Shown in pieces: positions 1,549 to 12,808 of a stretch of DNA of 35,622 nucleotides (position 1 is its first letter; each line of letters starts with the position of its first letter). The DNA comes from Granulicella sp. GTDB taxonomy: Bacteria > Acidobacteriota > Terriglobia > Terriglobales > Acidobacteriaceae. The notes below the pieces were generated by a model. That model did not search any database. It was not told where the DNA came from and saw only the letters and a list, made by a program, of their open reading frames with translations. The translations under genes and the position numbers were made by a program. The stretch covers positions 1-35,622 of the forward strand of contig PLHC01000008.1 of the NCBI GenBank assembly GCA_003138795.1, read 5' to 3'.

Positions 1549-2100
1549 TTATGACCAGACGACGGCCTGCACGGCGGCGACAGTGGTTGCGGCCATAACC
1601 TCGGCCCCCAGCGTGGCATGCGTGGCCTGCTGGGACTGAATCCACGCCTTGGCATCGACGCCGACCTGCTGAATCTGCGCTGCGGTGTGGGGAGTAAATG
1701 CCCAGACGGCCGGAGTTCCAGTCGCGCAATAAAACAGCGTGGTGAAGGTGCTTGGCACGCCGGGCAGCATGGATGCTACGACAGACGCTGTGAGGTTGAG
1801 CTGGTCGGTCTGCCCCGATGGATAGAGATGCGCCGAGCCGAGAGCCGACGAACTGAATCCCCCGATAATGGCCTGCTTGGCATTGTTGCTGAGCAGGGTA
1901 AGCTGCTGCTGCTGTGCCTGATATAACTGCACGCTCGGCCATGCCTGCTGCAACTCGGGGATGGTTGGCTGCGGGCCGAGTTTGGTCGTGTTCCAGTTGC
2001 CTAGCGTGGGCGTGGTACTGCCCTGCGTAAAGTAGAGGTAAAAGTCCGCGCCCTGCGCAGCCGTGGGGTAGAGGAATCTGATAATGGCCGAATAATCCAT
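1549..2100 (-). CDS. Phage tail-associated protein, DUF4376-like
   Basis: A 183-residue protein following the tail-tip gene. The second half (about residues 75-165, from SNNAKQAIIGGFSSSALG to QSQQATHATLGAEV) has the pattern I associate with DUF4376, a domain of small phage tail or tail-fibre-assembly proteins: a helix, then a short strand pair, then a helix that ends in a polar-Ala stretch. The N-terminus (FLYPTAAQGADFYLY) is typical of proteins that lie near tail fibres. The ATG at 2100 has a clear AAGGAG ribosome site. It is the last gene of the late operon. The family call is from memory of the pattern, and the role is inferred from position. Confidence 0.6.
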   Translation of the reverse strand: MDYSAIIRFLYPTAAQGADFYLYFTQGSTTPTLGNWNTTKLGPQPTIPELQQAWPSVQLYQAQQQQLTLLSNNAKQAIIGGFSSSALGSAHLYPSGQTDQLNLTASVVASMLPGVPSTFTTLFYCATGTPAVWAFTPHTAAQIQQVGVDAKAWIQSQQATHATLGAEVMAATTVAAVQAVVWS

Positions 2101-2465: not shown

Positions 2466-5400
2466 CTAAATCTTCTGGAAGTTGTGACTGTAGATGCGAC
2501 GATCCGCCGTTGTTCCGGCTGCGAAGGTGCGGCCACCCACAGAGATGAAGTTGACCAGCCTTGCTCCGGCTGGTTCTACATGGCATCGCGCCCAGACACA
2601 TTCAGTGCCGTGGCCCGAATCAGTCAGAACCATGCTGCCATCCATTGCAACAGCGAGGCACGACGACCCATCTTCCAAGGTGAACGGAGTTGAGATGCTA
2701 ACGATAAGTTCGTGTCCAACGTCCGTCCAGACACGCACACAGGGCTGTAAGCTGACACCATCATGCTCAACTGGAAACTCTCCGTCTGTGCAGTCCAGCA
2801 CATCTCCTATGACGAGATCGCCAACCTGCACGCCGTCGTAGACAAACATCTCCAGCGCGGGGCACCCTTTGGGAACGCCTGCACTCCCTCCGCTCGACGT
2901 TCCGCCGCTGCCGACTGCGGCTGTGGATGCCTGCATCCCCGGCCCACCCGTCAGCAGCGCGATGTTGCCGTCGAGACCGAGCACCGTGACTATTGTCAGG
3001 TTGCTAAACGTCGTGGCTGTTGCCGCCGACGTAGTGGCGGAGATCATCCACTCACCAAGCGTTGAGGATGCTACGTTCAGGCTGCATCCAATGTCATAGG
3101 TGGTACCCGTTGCCAACCCGGTGAACTCATAGCTGCCTGCGCTGATTACTGTAATAGAGCCGTCCGAACGATACAGGTCAAACGTCACCCAACTCACTGT
3201 GATGGTGTTATAAGTGCCCGTGTAGGTAAACGCAAGGTTGCCAAACCCCGTGAGTCCGCCCTGCTTATTTAGGGATGAGCTACTGCCTGATGTTACAAGG
3301 CTTGCAATGGGTGTGATGGCTGCTGCAGCCACGCCGCCTAGCGATGCAGCGTTGGGGTTGCCATACGACGCAAAGATATTGCCCACTTGCGAGTTAGACA
3401 GGCATGTCCCAAGCCACAATGCCACATCCTGCATGTTGATGCCATTTGAGCAATAATTCCATCCGCTGGCTAAGTTGGGCCAGCTAGTTCCAAAAACTGA
3501 GCCAACGATCCATATACTCAACGCCCCGCTGTTCGGTGCTGACCCCGTGCCCACCACTAATCCATCGACAAACAATGTCAACGTGTTGTAGTTGTACGTG
3601 CAGGCAAGATGGTGGGGCACGCTCCAATTCGGCGCAGAAGCGGAAACTGCCTCATTCAAGCCATTTCCGTATGTCCCTGCATGTACGTAGCCGGATGAAT
3701 CTACAAACATTACGGGGTTGTACCCTGTAGGTGCGTATCCAGCCGGACTAGCGTTAGCATTTGCAAATATTCCTGCGACTCCTCCCTGCGGCGGTAGATT
3801 GCCGCCAAAGTAGACCCACGTCATCACCGTCCACGATGTAGGGGACCACAGGGAGGCATACCATGCGGCCTGACCGTAAACGTAACTCCCTGCAATCGCA
3901 TCTCCGGGTGCTGGGGATTGCACCGCTATTCCTGACGACCCACCGGAACCTATAAATAAAGACAGGTTCACTGGTCCCGTACCGATGTCCGTCATGGAGT
4001 TATTATCCAGCGGCCAGAAGTTTGTTGGCGCAAGATATAGGATTGCGGCCTTACCACTCCTCACAGGCAGACCATTCGCGAGCGTTGTTGCCAACTGGCG
4101 CGAGTAAGTGCTGCCGTTAGATAGAGTGTCTAATGACTGGTTGCTCAGCGATGCGGTTGTGGCACTTTGGTTCAGCGATGTAACATCCGCACCCCATTGG
4201 CCTGTTGCACCATACGGTACGCAGGTCACACCCTCTAAATAGATATCCCCGCCAGTAGTTCCGTTGCTGCATATCTGTATGGATGCGAAGAGGCCACCTG
4301 GACACACCCACTCGAAGCTGTAGTTATTCTCAAAGTTATAAGCGAAGGGTAGGTAGATCGTGGTGTAAGAGCTACTTGAGGCCCAGCCCTGCAATCCTGT
4401 TGAGGCTGACCCATAATTGACACGCATCACCGGGTTTGGGCTAACTGTAACGCCCCCATAAAAACCTGTGACAGTTATCATGTATGTTGCACCACCAACA
4501 ACACTAAACACTGGCGTCGCTGCAAAGTTCTCGCCGAGATTAGATGCGTAAATGAGAATAGCGTCACTCCATGCACCAGGGCCGCCGCCTAGACTGTAGG
4601 TTGCCCCACTGAGTACCCATCCCTGAGTGTTGTCGAGAATGAAAGTACCGTTTGGAACTATGCTCTCACTAGACCCTGTGTAGACGATAGCCTGCTGCGC
4701 CGTGACATCCGCGCCCGCCTGTGACGGCATCAGAGTTGCGATAGGTGTGATGGCTGCGAGTGTTGTGGTCGTGCCTTGAACGGTCGCACTAGCCGATAGA
4801 TACGCCGGTGTCGTTGAAGTACTTGCCGTAATAATGCCCTGTACGCTGCTGGACATCGCACCATGCGCCAACCCTGCTGTCGAGTTGGTCGCACCGACAC
4901 CAGCAATATAGGCCGTCATCGTGCTACCCGGCTGGATCATAGGAGCCGCTGCAAGTAGGACACCACCAGAGGAGATTGTGCAGGCATTCGTGTCGAAGAG
5001 CAAGACCACGTTGACAGCCGTCCCAGCCGCAACACCAACGGGGCTGAATGTAAAGGTGATGCTGACGCGGCCCGTCTGTCCTGGGGCCTGGGTGACCGTA
5101 ACATAAAAGGTTGTGATGGATGGGTTATATAGTTGCCATACCGGAGTTCCAGCCGTCACATAATATGTGTCGATAAATCCGCTGAGTGTATAGGTCTGTC
5201 CAGCAACCAGCTGGAACGGCGTGGATTGCGTACACTGATACGTTCCACTAGCAGCAGCAGAGACCATCAGCGCCATGCATCCCGGTACAGGGCTGGCAGG
5301 ATCAGGATTACTGGTGGAGATGGCATCCACCACCGACCATTCAGAGCCGGGATTGCTCCAATATGCTGACGGGCCGATGCCGAACTGGAGGTTGCTGTCG

Positions 5401-8679: not shown

Positions 8680-9249
8680 TTAGGAGATCGTGTTGCCCCA
8701 CAAGGCCACGTAGTCGGCCAGGTCGGCGGTGTACAGGAACCCCGTGTCTCCGGGGTAGAGTTCGGCCTGCTGAGCCTGTGTCCAGCGATAGGTTCGATCA
8801 CGCTGCAGCTGGGTCAGCCGGTTCTCCACGTCAAGGGATATGGACGACAGACCACTGGCATCCTCCTTTATGGTTATCCCGTCTGTTTGACCGGCGAAGC
8901 TCACGATCGGAACGCCGATAACGTTGTTGCTGCCATCCAGCACGACGAACAGGATTTGAACATTGCCGCCTTGCGGTATGTCGGTCAGGGCCTCGGAGAT
9001 GTTGGTGGGGTCAACACCATTCAGAGTGAGGGTTACACCCTGCGAAATCACGCTATTGGCCTCTGTAATGGCCGATATGTTGGTCAGCGAACCAAGGCCG
9101 AGATAAGTGTTTCCGTTGTAGACAACGGTGCCGTATCCGGTCCAGGCGTAGACCATGCCGCTGAGGGTTTCAATGCTCACCAGCGTGCCCATGCGGAGAT
9201 TGCCGGTTGCCATCAGCGCTAAGACGGTGGGGTCGATGCCTCTGGGCAT
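8680..9249 (-). CDS. Distal tail protein, DUF2163-like
   Basis: A 189-residue protein starting MPRGIDPTVLAL. It resembles the N-terminal region of DUF2163-type tail proteins: an N-terminal helix, then a beta module of the form TLVSIETLSGMVYAWTGYG, VYNGNTYLGLG. Mid-protein strands (GVTLTLNGVDP, VQILFVVLDGSNNVIG) fit a tail-hub fold. It lies between a small distal tail gene and the peptidase, where lambda-like phages place their L-type tip proteins. The start ATG overlaps the previous stop (TAATG at 9247-9251), so coupling is likely and the start is secure. Confidence 0.6.
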   Translation of the reverse strand: MPRGIDPTVLALMATGNLRMGTLVSIETLSGMVYAWTGYGTVVYNGNTYLGLGSLTNISAITEANSVISQGVTLTLNGVDPTNISEALTDIPQGGNVQILFVVLDGSNNVIGVPIVSFAGQTDGITIKEDASGLSSISLDVENRLTQLQRDRTYRWTQAQQAELYPGDTGFLYTADLADYVALWGNTIS

Positions 9250-9872
9250 TAGAGCGCCTCCATGGCCTGCAGGGTGGGGAAGGTATACAGCGCTTTTACC
9301 GAGTAGCTCCACTCGCGGTCGGGCTTCGCCAGCCGGAAGAGTCCCTGCGTGTTGGTGGTGATAATAGGGGTACCGGCGGCGGGAGTGTCGCGGAGCTGGG
9401 GGAAGATCGAAAGGGTGGCTCCGCCCGTGCCGTTGGAGTTGACCGCCTCGAGGATCTTGTACAGCCGGTAGCCGATCTGGATCGAATCACCGGGAAGAAA
9501 CAGGTTGTTGGCCGAGGCGGGAAGGCCTGCGACCACGATGCTGTTCAGGGTGGTGGCTGACTGGAAGGTCATTCCGGTGCCCGCATAACTTCCCAGCGGG
9601 CGGGCCTCGATCAGATTGCCGATCAGGAAGACGTTGGTGTTGCCCTGCAGCTCCAGCAGGAAGGCCTGCCAGGGTTGGGCCTGGGCGCGGGTCATGGCAG
9701 GGAAGGCAATACTCAGCGTCCACCACTGCGCTGCCCAGTTATACACGCTGGTCGCTCCCGACCACGGAGATTGGCTGACCGAGGTCGCGTCGTGGGCTGT
9801 AACCGCGACTTCAATCAGACGGCTGTTGGGGCACTGGATGATGTTCGCCCCGTTGAAGGTGCCGATGATCAT
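9249..9872 (-). CDS. Tail protein downstream of the tape measure (distal tail/minor tail candidate)
   Basis: A 207-residue beta-rich protein beginning MIIGTFNGANIIQCPNSRLIEV. The central part (YNWAAQWWTLSIAFPAMTRA followed by WQAFLLELQG) is a pattern I recognise from phage proteins that lie immediately after the tape measure gene. In these a tail-hub-like sheet is followed by a helix, as in distal tail proteins. It has no transmembrane segments or signal. It starts inside the tape measure stop codon (TAATG) and ends overlapping the next start, so its coordinates are well fixed. I infer a structural role at the tail tip; the exact family is not certain. Confidence 0.6.
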   Translation of the reverse strand: MIIGTFNGANIIQCPNSRLIEVAVTAHDATSVSQSPWSGATSVYNWAAQWWTLSIAFPAMTRAQAQPWQAFLLELQGNTNVFLIGNLIEARPLGSYAGTGMTFQSATTLNSIVVAGLPASANNLFLPGDSIQIGYRLYKILEAVNSNGTGGATLSIFPQLRDTPAAGTPIITTNTQGLFRLAKPDREWSYSVKALYTFPTLQAMEAL

Positions 9873-12808
9873 TAGGGTTTCCTCTTCGCTATATCTTGCG
9901 TTGCAGCGATCGCCTGCCTCACCGCTTGCTTCCTGCTGTGCTCAATCGCGGCCTGAACGTACGCCGCAGTCTGCGCCGGGTTGTTGCTCTGGCGAGCGTC
10001 GACGTTGTAGTGGTAGTGCGTGTCGCCTCCGCCCATACCGCCCGGCTGGTTGTACTTCTTCGGTACGACGGCCTCACCTTGATGGACCATTGCGAGCATG
10101 TCGTGCGGGACGTAGTCGGTTCCCACATCCAGGAACGGGATAGCGAGCTTGGCATAGCTCATAAGGGTTTTCAGCATGGAAGGCGGGGATGCGCCGCCCG
10201 CGAGGGAGACGTCTGGCATCGCTGGACTATTCGCGCCAAAGAGCGACTGCCCCAGCGCGGCGGAGCCAGTGTCAGCGCCCGGCATCACAGTGGAGGACAA
10301 CAACGGAGCGAAGTCCGCACCCGGAGTCCGCGGCGATAAGAGGCCAGCCAGTCCGTTGGGCATGGCGGAGACGTTCGGCGTCGATGGGCCCTTCGCGCCA
10401 AAGGGGGACTTGCCCAGCGCCGCCGCGCCAACCTCGTGCACATAGAGCGCCGCGGTCGCACTCGATCCATCTCTCTTGCCGCCAAGACCAGGGACGCCTA
10501 ACTTGCCCAACATCTTCAAAGTCGTCCCTTCGCCGTACTTGAGACCCTCCCCCTCAGCATCTTTCCCCATAGCCAAACCCATCGCCTTGAAGCGATGAGA
10601 TCCCGGCTTGCCGGGGTTCAGGATGGCATTGTTGACGCTGCTGAGGGCGCTGTCGACGAGATGCTTCATCAGCGCTGCATTGTCCATCGCCGCTGCCGTG
10701 AGCTCCTGCAACGCAGCGACAGCGCCGCCGACCGCCGTATTCGAGAACTCTTCCCACTTATCCTGCATGGCCTGCAGTTGGGCTTGGCTCGTCGCTGTAG
10801 CGATCGCGCCCTGCACCGCTTTCTGCTGCGCCTCATTCTCCGGCTTCTGCCGCTCATAGTCCTTGCCGTTGGGATCGAAGTTCTTAGCATCGGCCTTGAG
10901 GTCGGCGAGGTCCTGCTGCAGTTGGGCGATCTTTGCAGCCGAATCGGTGGCGTGAACGCCCGTCATCACCTGGGCGGCATCGCCCTTCGACATCGCGCCC
11001 GTCTTAACGCCATGCTCCGCCTGCAGCGCCTTGATCGCCTCCTGGCTCTTGACCATCAAATCGTTGTTCTTCGCGATCTCGGCGTTGTAGACCTTCCAGC
11101 GCTCGCCGGTGCGGGAGACGTCCTCGGCCTGCTCGCGCAGCCGTGCATTGAACGCAGCCATCGCCTCGTTCGCTTCCTTCGGATCGAGGTTGGCGGTTTC
11201 GTTCGACTCCTTCTGGAACTTGAGAATAGCCTCGTGCGCTGCCTTCGCGCCCTCAACGGCGAGCGACGCCTGCTTCGCGACGATGGCGTCGTACTGTTCC
11301 GAGCCCTGCTTGAACGCGTCGATGCGCTGCGACCAGAAGTCGTACTCTACCTTGACCGATACATTAGTCTGCTGCTTCATCTGGTCGAGATCGGCGGTGT
11401 AGCCCTTCAGCCGCTGCTCGCGGGCCTTGTTCGCCGCGGCCTCGGCCTTGGCCGCGCTGCCGGGATCGCCGCCAGTCCCCCCAAACCCTCCATCGCCGCC
11501 AGTCCCACCCCCGGACACCACGGCGGGAATGATCGGCGAGCTTCCGCTCTTATTGCCTTCCACCATCGCCTCGCGAAACTCCTGGGCTTTGGCGTCCAAA
11601 CTCGCAGCCAGATCCAACATCTCCCTTCCCGATGAGGTAAGCCTTCCACCATCCCCAAGCGCCGCCAGTTCTACGGTGCCGCTCGCCAGCCCATAGGCTG
11701 CCGCCGCCGCAAGGTTCATGACTGCTGCCAACCTCTCCCCCAGGCTGGTGAATACGGACATCGGACCAGCGCCGTTGGAAAGAGCACTCATGAACTGGTT
11801 CAGCCCAGGCGTCAACCCATCCGTGAACGCGAGCTGCGCGCCCAAAACCTTCTGCTGCATATCTTTCAAGCGCTGATTCGTTGCAGCCAGCGACTCCGCC
11901 GTCTGACCGTCCAGTTGCACCCCTGCCGCAGCAGCCTTCGCACGGAACGCGTCCCAGTTGTTGCCAAGCTGCAGGATGGTGGGGATCTGCTCTGCACCCG
12001 CCTTGCCGAGCAGCCCGGTGGCCAGCTCCACGCGGCGAATAGGATTCTCCGTATCGGCCATCGTCGACGCGAATTTCTTGAACGCGATCTCCGCGCCGTC
12101 CGAGCGGCCAGCCAGCTCCGATGCATTGAGGCCGAGGGACCTCATAAAGGACTCAGCCTTCTTATCCCCCTCCGTGGCTGCAGCGATAGTCTTGTCCATC
12201 TTTGCGACAGCCGAACTCATCTTATCGAAGTCGCCGCCCGTGATCCCCGCCGCATAATGCAGCGTGGAGAGCGTGCCAACCGAAAGCCCCGTCTTCTCAC
12301 TGGCGCGCTGAATCGCTTCGCCGAAATCGAGCGACTCGGTGACCGCCTCCTTCATCTTGCTGATCAATTCGCCGATCGCTGCAACCGAGGCGAGGCCCTT
12401 CAGCATCGACGACATATTCATGCCGCCGCCATTCTTATTACCGCCGTTGACGGCCTTCTGCGCCTCCGCCGTGGCGCGCAGCTGCGTCTGCAGCCGCTGG
12501 TGCGCGGCGGCCATCGCCTGGATCCCCTGGCCCTCCGACACGTAGCCGGAGGCAGCAATCTTCTGAGCACGAGCAAAGTCCGCATACGCCTCGCGCTGCT
12601 TCTTGAGCGCGTTGACGAGTGCGACACTCTGCTTCGTGACCGCATCGCCGATGAACTGGGAGGCAAACTTCTGCGCGTCCGCGCCACGCTTGGCCGCCTT
12701 CTCCGTGGCCGCACCCGTGGCCGTGGCCTCTTTGGCGGACTTCGCCATCGCCGCATCGAACTGCGCGTTATCCGCGAGCAGCCGTGCTGTAAGGTCCATG
12801 TTTCCCAT
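9872..12808 (-). CDS. Tail tape measure protein
   Basis: A 978-residue protein, the largest in the tail region after the tip. It is Ala/Lys-rich and mostly helical (residues 15-120 and 450-700 read as coiled coil), with apolar stretches near 133-152 and 365-390. The C-terminal tail ends in HYHYNVDAR and IEHSRKQAVRQAI, common in tape measures. It sets tail length and is ejected during infection. At the usual 1.5 angstrom per residue the tail would be near 150 nm. A roughly 25-residue unit occurs twice near the C-terminus (AALGKSPFGAKGPSTPNVSA and AALGQSLFGANSPAMPDVSL). The ATG at 12808 overlaps the upstream stop (TGATG). Confidence 0.9.
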   Translation of the reverse strand: MGNMDLTARLLADNAQFDAAMAKSAKEATATGAATEKAAKRGADAQKFASQFIGDAVTKQSVALVNALKKQREAYADFARAQKIAASGYVSEGQGIQAMAAAHQRLQTQLRATAEAQKAVNGGNKNGGGMNMSSMLKGLASVAAIGELISKMKEAVTESLDFGEAIQRASEKTGLSVGTLSTLHYAAGITGGDFDKMSSAVAKMDKTIAAATEGDKKAESFMRSLGLNASELAGRSDGAEIAFKKFASTMADTENPIRRVELATGLLGKAGAEQIPTILQLGNNWDAFRAKAAAAGVQLDGQTAESLAATNQRLKDMQQKVLGAQLAFTDGLTPGLNQFMSALSNGAGPMSVFTSLGERLAAVMNLAAAAAYGLASGTVELAALGDGGRLTSSGREMLDLAASLDAKAQEFREAMVEGNKSGSSPIIPAVVSGGGTGGDGGFGGTGGDPGSAAKAEAAANKAREQRLKGYTADLDQMKQQTNVSVKVEYDFWSQRIDAFKQGSEQYDAIVAKQASLAVEGAKAAHEAILKFQKESNETANLDPKEANEAMAAFNARLREQAEDVSRTGERWKVYNAEIAKNNDLMVKSQEAIKALQAEHGVKTGAMSKGDAAQVMTGVHATDSAAKIAQLQQDLADLKADAKNFDPNGKDYERQKPENEAQQKAVQGAIATATSQAQLQAMQDKWEEFSNTAVGGAVAALQELTAAAMDNAALMKHLVDSALSSVNNAILNPGKPGSHRFKAMGLAMGKDAEGEGLKYGEGTTLKMLGKLGVPGLGGKRDGSSATAALYVHEVGAAALGKSPFGAKGPSTPNVSAMPNGLAGLLSPRTPGADFAPLLSSTVMPGADTGSAALGQSLFGANSPAMPDVSLAGGASPPSMLKTLMSYAKLAIPFLDVGTDYVPHDMLAMVHQGEAVVPKKYNQPGGMGGGDTHYHYNVDARQSNNPAQTAAYVQAAIEHSRKQAVRQAIAATQDIAKRKP

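Follow-up and report, generated by a model that had tools for sequence, protein, structure and literature searches.

A predicted Hint domain without the block-B histidine at the C-terminus of a J-like phage tail-tip protein

What is an intein-like fold doing at the very end of a phage tail-tip protein? Hint domains work as single-turnover enzymes in the cutting, ligation or transfer of proteins. Those that were met in phages in this work, where the carrier is known, sit mainly in terminases and DnaB-type helicases, with one in a MuF capsid protein, and in open-licence PMC papers no description of a Hint domain at a tail tip was found among the matches listed. The locus considered here lies in the window, which is the whole 35,622-nucleotide stretch of Granulicella sp. 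DNA that was analysed. An earlier note, made from the sequence alone, had assigned the last 132 residues of the tail-tip protein to a Hint domain that keeps Cys1 and a terminal His-Asn, lacks a block-B His and has Phe after the Asn. All of these features are present in the sequence, and the assignment is borne out by a fold search, by a profile match to the gp41-1 intein and by the relatives of the domain.

The window looks like a temperate siphophage between positions 189 and 34726, judging from its recombinase-like, ParB-like, O-like replication, terminase, portal, head and tail genes. The gene at 189-1655 is tyrosine-recombinase-like and scores below the NCBIfam cut-offs. The tail-tip gene has tail genes on one side, beyond which lie the head, portal and terminase genes, and an XkdW/DUF4376 gene on the other (PF14301 E 8.1e-9, PF09636 E 9.3e-8; PHROG 1348, tail fiber). 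The tail-tip protein is covered by PHROG 5616 (tail fiber) at residues 17-588 (E 3.2e-45) and by PHROG 31 (central tail fiber J) at residues 228-558 (E 2.1e-22). Its lectin-like domain scores 28.1 bits against a cut-off of 27.6 on a fragment of the protein and falls below the cut-off on the entire protein. A small ORF on the minus strand (2113-2450) starts directly past the J stop codon; considered as a possible downstream partner gene, it shows no relative at the loci compared. The coordinates of the main features are collected in Table 1.

Table 1. Position of the tail-tip protein, its C-terminal domain and neighbouring tail genes in the window
Feature	Position	Strand	Basis
J-like central tail fibre (tail-tip) protein, 1909 aa	2466..8195	-	ORF list, GTG start as listed; PHROG matches
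Concanavalin/LamG-like (lectin-like) domain, N-terminal to the Hint domain	3528..3866	-	PF13385
Gly/Ser/Ala-rich linker preceding the Hint domain	2865..2948	-	6-12 Gly within the 14 residues before Cys, 23/24
Predicted Hint domain, 132 aa, C-terminal end of the tail-tip protein	2469..2864	-	AlphaFold2 model; Foldseek and VIA-align; profile match to gp41-1 intein
Cys1, residue 1 of the Hint domain	2862..2864	-	sequence; Cys in 24/24
Ser at block-B position 7, model residue 59	2697..2699	-	aligned on Ser of gp41-1 CSEEHLF
Thr at block-B position 10, model residue 62	2688..2690	-	aligned on His of gp41-1 CSEEHLF; Thr in 9/9 of the Thr subfamily
Terminal His-Asn (block G)	2481..2486	-	sequence; 24/24 keep His-Asn
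Tail behind Asn: Phe-Gln-Lys-Ile	2469..2480	-	sequence; all 24 have a tail of 3-13 residues
XkdW/DUF4376 gene, tail-fibre related, downstream of the tail-tip gene	1549..2100	-	PF14301, PF09636, PHROG 1348
Tail protein	8680-9312		PHROG match
Distal tail protein	9249-9872		PHROG match
Tape measure	9872-12808		PHROG match

Fold and sequence links to inteins

AlphaFold2, supplied with 9 aligned sequences, gives a best model of the window domain with pLDDT 84.5 and pTM 0.80. This is the one confident model of the five, and the remaining four have pLDDT values of 57.7-64.9. The earlier note had named a match of a predicted structure to Hint or BIL folds as a check, and Foldseek returns exactly that. 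The 28 PDB chains found at E <= 0.001 are all inteins, Hedgehog or BIL domains, and the top match is the gp41-1 intein (E 1.1e-6, TM 0.78). VIA-align 2 places the model on gp41-1 (6qaz) with Z 17.2 and an rmsd of 1.7 over 120 residues, and on Hedgehog (1at0) with Z 16.1; for the C. thermocellum BIL (2lwy) Z is 13.4. Among predicted viral structures the four best-matching proteins reach TM 0.82-0.91 at 27-33% identity, and the ranks below them include terminase, DnaB and proteins annotated as Hint, along with others. On these models it is close to certain that the last 132 residues of the tail-tip protein have a Hint fold.

Searches with the single window domain give no Hint-like match in Pfam, NCBIfam or PHROGs, nor does phmmer against the PDB. 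A profile of 6 members of its own subfamily, none of which has the block-B His, places gp41-1 first among 177,635 PDB sequences (E 1.6e-5) and also matches PhoCDC21-1 (E 7.6e-4). Taken together, the profile match to gp41-1 and the fold matches are well beyond chance. The window domain has Ser-x-x-Thr in block B, as against the Thr-x-x-His common in class 1 inteins, and in the profile alignment this Ser-x-x-Thr falls on the Ser-x-x-His of gp41-1, at block-B positions 7 and 10 (B:7 and B:10, numbered as in PMC4031507). The block-B His of the window domain is taken to be replaced by Thr, because the alignment places Ser59 and Thr62 on these two positions. The block-F His position aligns with Arg, and the domain closes with the letters IYSHN-FQKI.

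Relatives, subfamilies and modularity

A tblastn search of 50,697 phage records with the window domain found 7 records at 32-34% identity (E 2e-10 to 0.04), which are those of five Xanthomonas phages, one Stenotrophomonas phage and one Erwinia phage. In the four records opened (LucasX, XacN1, DLP_6 and PhiXhv-12) the encoded protein always ends with the domain. The carriers in LucasX and PhiXhv-12 have annotated tail genes nearby, the DLP_6 carrier is annotated as a VlrC protein, and in XacN1, for which virion mass-spectrometry data exist (PXD008065, JPST000339; PMC5852040), the carrier is ORF231 (BBA65379.1) and its near neighbours are mostly unnamed. The earlier note had spoken of similar tails on other phage tail proteins; C-terminal relatives were indeed found, and a tail identity could be assigned to some of their carriers. 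Among 398 genomes of the host family the domain was found in 5 with the single sequence and in 10 with a profile, the window's own genome being among them each time; the profile count also includes L019, a chance match at which another frame reads RecA-like. No relative turned up in one scan of genome contigs or in two scans of viral sequences.

After removal of duplicates and chance matches there are 24 distinct C-terminal domains from Acidobacteriaceae genomes, viral contigs and phages of Xanthomonas and Stenotrophomonas. Typing of the carrier as a tail protein covers part of the 24, and sequence comparison to the window J covers selected loci. The count leaves out L034 (a stop and a 44-aa frame), L026 (C-terminal 260 residues the same as in L025; L039 and L040 are those same two contigs), L035-L038 and L027 (ends the same as in L022, L018, L020 and L021), L002 (identical to the window across 10,864 bases), and Erwinia phage Ep032, PhiXhv-15 and PhiXhv-16 (99-100% match to the PhiXhv-12 domain). 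The 24 comprise a Thr group of 9, which includes the window domain, a His group of 4, a Glu group of 9 and the singles L033 and L070. L033 is a single member with a canonical block B. At B:10 there are 10 Thr, 9 Glu and 5 His, where the placement of Glu and of the L070 Thr rests on multiple alignments. The B:10 residue is the same throughout each subfamily (Thr 9/9, Glu 9/9, His 4/4), and the block-B His is missing in 19 of the 24.

Cys1 and His-Asn are each kept in 24/24 domains, which were found by similarity and then located by peptides starting at Cys. The Asn is followed by 3-13 residues in every case, the first of which is Cys, Ser or Thr in 4/24, and a Gly-rich stretch precedes the Cys in all except L025. 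In an alignment of 22 sequences, with flanks of varying length kept, the Cys, His and Asn are the sole invariant columns. The sequences in the tree alignment had been trimmed to run from Cys to His-Asn, which by itself makes these residues invariant in it. In the tree the Thr group is recovered as a clade (support 0.985), within which members from Acidobacteriaceae and from Xanthomonad phages are intermingled. All alignments of the Hint domains are shallow.

The subfamilies are linked to Hint proteins and to each other by different routes. The Glu group was modelled separately (best pLDDT 87.4, others 62.2-79.3), and its model matches BIL2, gp41-1 and Vint (8r2c). A profile of the His subfamily alone finds no Hint protein in the PDB, where its matches are mostly antibody-like noise. 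The link of this subfamily therefore rests on matches to Pfam Vint below the cut-off and on profile-profile alignment; sister sequences score on Vint or Hint_2 below the cut-offs, with a best value of 6.8e-5. Profile-profile alignment joins the His group to the Thr group (probability 92, P 6e-7) and to the Glu group (probability 85, P 6.4e-6). Because the Thr and Glu profiles align over only 32 N-terminal columns (probability 25), these two groups are joined indirectly, via the fold and the His group. The C. thermocellum BIL is matched at E 0.0014 when the His group is part of the profile and at E 0.042 when it is left out. A profile of the Thr and His groups was run against 347 genomes of the phylum and, leaving aside the window's own genome, gave 9 matches. 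Five of them read with intein-like blocks A and B and are cellular proteins; these include the four best (E 4.5e-6 to 3e-4) and one further match (5.3e-4). The other four score E 5.8e-4 to 7e-4. Two of these (L046 and L049) show no Hint character on reading, and two (L047 and L048) were left out unread, with a frame length of 319 aa and scores like L046.

Purifying selection on the Hint domain is seen in one close trio of the His (sister) subfamily. In this trio dN is 0.095-0.179 and dS is 1.69 or saturated, similar to the upstream region, and the sole Hint comparison with unsaturated dS gives dN 0.095 against dS 1.69. A functionless, decaying intein remnant could well have lost the block-B His, as 19 of the 24 domains have, yet such a remnant is hardly credible here: the key residues are kept in 24/24 across Acidobacteriaceae genomes and phages of Xanthomonas and Stenotrophomonas, dN lies far below dS in the tested trio, and the proteins have no leftover C-extein.

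The domain occurs on different proteins. The main body of the window J is common to Acidobacteriaceae J-like proteins that end in a Thr-type (L051, L052) or a Glu-type (L056, L021) Hint domain, whereas for the LucasX, XacN1, DLP_6, PhiXhv-12 and L025 proteins the similarity to the window protein is confined to about residues 1777-1909. A J match is present in 21 of 300 family genomes. These 21 genomes give 23 J-like ends, from which the partial J matches G140:C4 and G173:C78 are left out; 6 (L070 included) have a Hint end and 17 do not. An IYIQ-like (EIYIQ-like) motif is found in 12 of the 17 non-Hint ends, and some of the other five look truncated. This alternative C-terminal end is seen at L058, L060-L065, L067, L069 and L073-L075. 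By position and modularity, the Hint domain is an interchangeable terminal module on phage proteins.

The J-like protein of L070 (365-3307, minus strand) has a quite different Hint-like end, which matches Hint_2 at E 0.0013, below the cut-off. Its block B reads Ser-x-x-Thr, yet a His is kept before the block-F Tyr, and the Thr is perhaps an independent change from His. A repeat search with this domain in 200 genomes and in phages gave no match; one empty answer in it carries no weight.

Self-processing and its alternatives

Class 1 inteins begin with Cys1 (or Ser1) and end with Asn, and so does the window domain. Its +1 residue is Phe, only 4 residues stand in the place of a C-extein, and it lacks the Thr-x-x-His that is common, not universal, in block B of that class. 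The phage-derived mini-intein gp41-1 is its best structural and sequence match and shares the Ser at B:7. They differ at B:10 (His in gp41-1, Thr in the window), and the window domain has Phe after the Asn and no C-extein for ligation. Ordinary protein splicing by the phage module is unlikely, because a nucleophile follows the Asn in only 4/24 domains. The earlier note had ruled splicing out. The 4 residues past the Asn offer hardly anything for splicing to join, and to this extent the claim stands; it is slightly too strong, because BIL domains without a +1 nucleophile are described as yielding predominantly, rather than solely, cleaved products, and several inteins without the block-B His are described as staying active by compensating changes (PMC7664689).

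In its features the phage module comes closest to A-type BIL domains, with which it shares the Hint fold, a His-Asn end, varied flanking residues and a +1 nucleophile that is not conserved. A-type BIL domains usually have an intein-like block B with His; the phage module has Thr or Glu in its place (Thr at B:10 in 9/9 of the window's subfamily). It also differs in standing at the extreme C-terminus, past a Gly-rich linker and with 3-13 residues behind it. A conserved His-Asn and possible C-terminal self-cleavage are described for A-type BIL domains (PMC7765530), and they are described as occurring in proteins that are not conserved, within hypervariable regions (PMC7765530; PMC7664689).

Two other Hint families were compared. 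The Hedgehog autoprocessing domain is likewise a C-terminal Hint domain after Gly-Cys, with the fold match given above. The window domain differs from it in keeping His-Asn, in lacking the block-B His and in having only 4 residues past the Asn, hence no separate sterol-recognition region. To our knowledge, C-side cleavage is absent from Hedgehog domains and His-Asn is not kept in them. For Vint (PF14623), some sister members score below the cut-off and the Glu-group model matches 8r2c, but the window domain is unmatched and all relatives stay under the curated cut-off, below 27 bits.

We give about even chances to the reading that the tail-tip protein ends in a BIL-like autoprocessing module whose active site has changed and which would undergo one slow or triggered self-processing event. 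This is plausible for the window because Cys1 and His-Asn are kept in 24/24. Asn cyclisation would clip the short tail behind His-Asn, and/or an acyl shift at Cys1 would detach the Hint domain from the flexible Gly-rich linker before it, either as the tail matures or at host contact. That a bond is cut, which bond and when, we infer; self-cleavage by the phage Hint module could as readily be true as false. Cys1, His-Asn, the chain behind the Asn and a B:10 residue fixed by subfamily would suit single-turnover self-processing better than a dead fold. The block-B and block-F His usually aid intein chemistry, and it counts against self-processing that the former is lost in 19/24 domains and the latter is Arg in the window. 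The release of merely 4 residues, the purpose of which is not obvious, counts against it too.

A Hint fold retired from catalysis, serving as a folded cap or binding module on a flexible linker, is a serious possibility that falls somewhat short of even. The two ends of a Hint fold meet, so the conserved Cys and His-Asn could be structural; they might also bind a ligand. The 19 domains without the block-B His are in keeping with such a cap, as are the lectin-like domain upstream in the window protein and the 17 of 23 J-like proteins that fill the same C-terminal place with non-Hint ends (12 of them IYIQ-like), which may mark a binding slot. Yet exactly the residues that perform the chemistry are invariant in 24/24, the short tail past the Asn is always there, and Thr or Glu at B:10 is fixed in each subfamily without drift. 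Hedgehog domains, which are not known to cleave on the C-side, are not known to keep His-Asn.

Peptidase S74/endosialidase-type intramolecular chaperones are self-cleaving C-terminal domains of phage fibres that are cut off once the fibre has trimerised; their fold and chemistry differ from those of Hint. The window domain has no S74 match (none in Pfam up to E 1 in the C-terminal 164 aa). An assembly chaperone of this kind that is removed by Hint chemistry would account for the C-terminal place of the domain on a J-like protein and on the LucasX and PhiXhv-12 carriers, which have annotated tail genes as neighbours, and a cleavable Cys1 would set the entire domain free. We regard it as improbable, for a Gly-rich linker (23/24) does not resemble the close packing of a chaperone against its fibre, and 17 of the 23 J-like proteins manage without a Hint domain.

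Covalent chemistry at adsorption is a long shot. A Gly-Cys thioester or an Asn-cyclisation succinimide, borne on the tail tip at the end of its flexible linker, might be attacked by a nucleophile of the cell surface, which would weld the tip to the host or release a plug. On this reading Thr and Glu in the active site would be tunings that hold the module poised until contact.

Since the nucleophile and His-Asn are kept while the block-B His becomes Thr or Glu in whole subfamilies, the evidence points to an undescribed job for a known fold at the host-contact end of the virion. Hint relatives with their key residues kept cap phage proteins that are otherwise unrelated, which suggests that the part of the virion that touches the host may process itself.

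Two minor observations concern the Glu subfamily. One Glu-type Hint domain (L031, 4001-4336, plus strand) has about 30 extra residues inserted close to block A. Eight of the nine proteins of the subfamily (L018, L020, L021 and L028-L032) end in a Cys that lies 5-8 residues past the Asn; this terminal Cys may be close to Cys1, serving as a redox lock or as a nucleophile that has been displaced.
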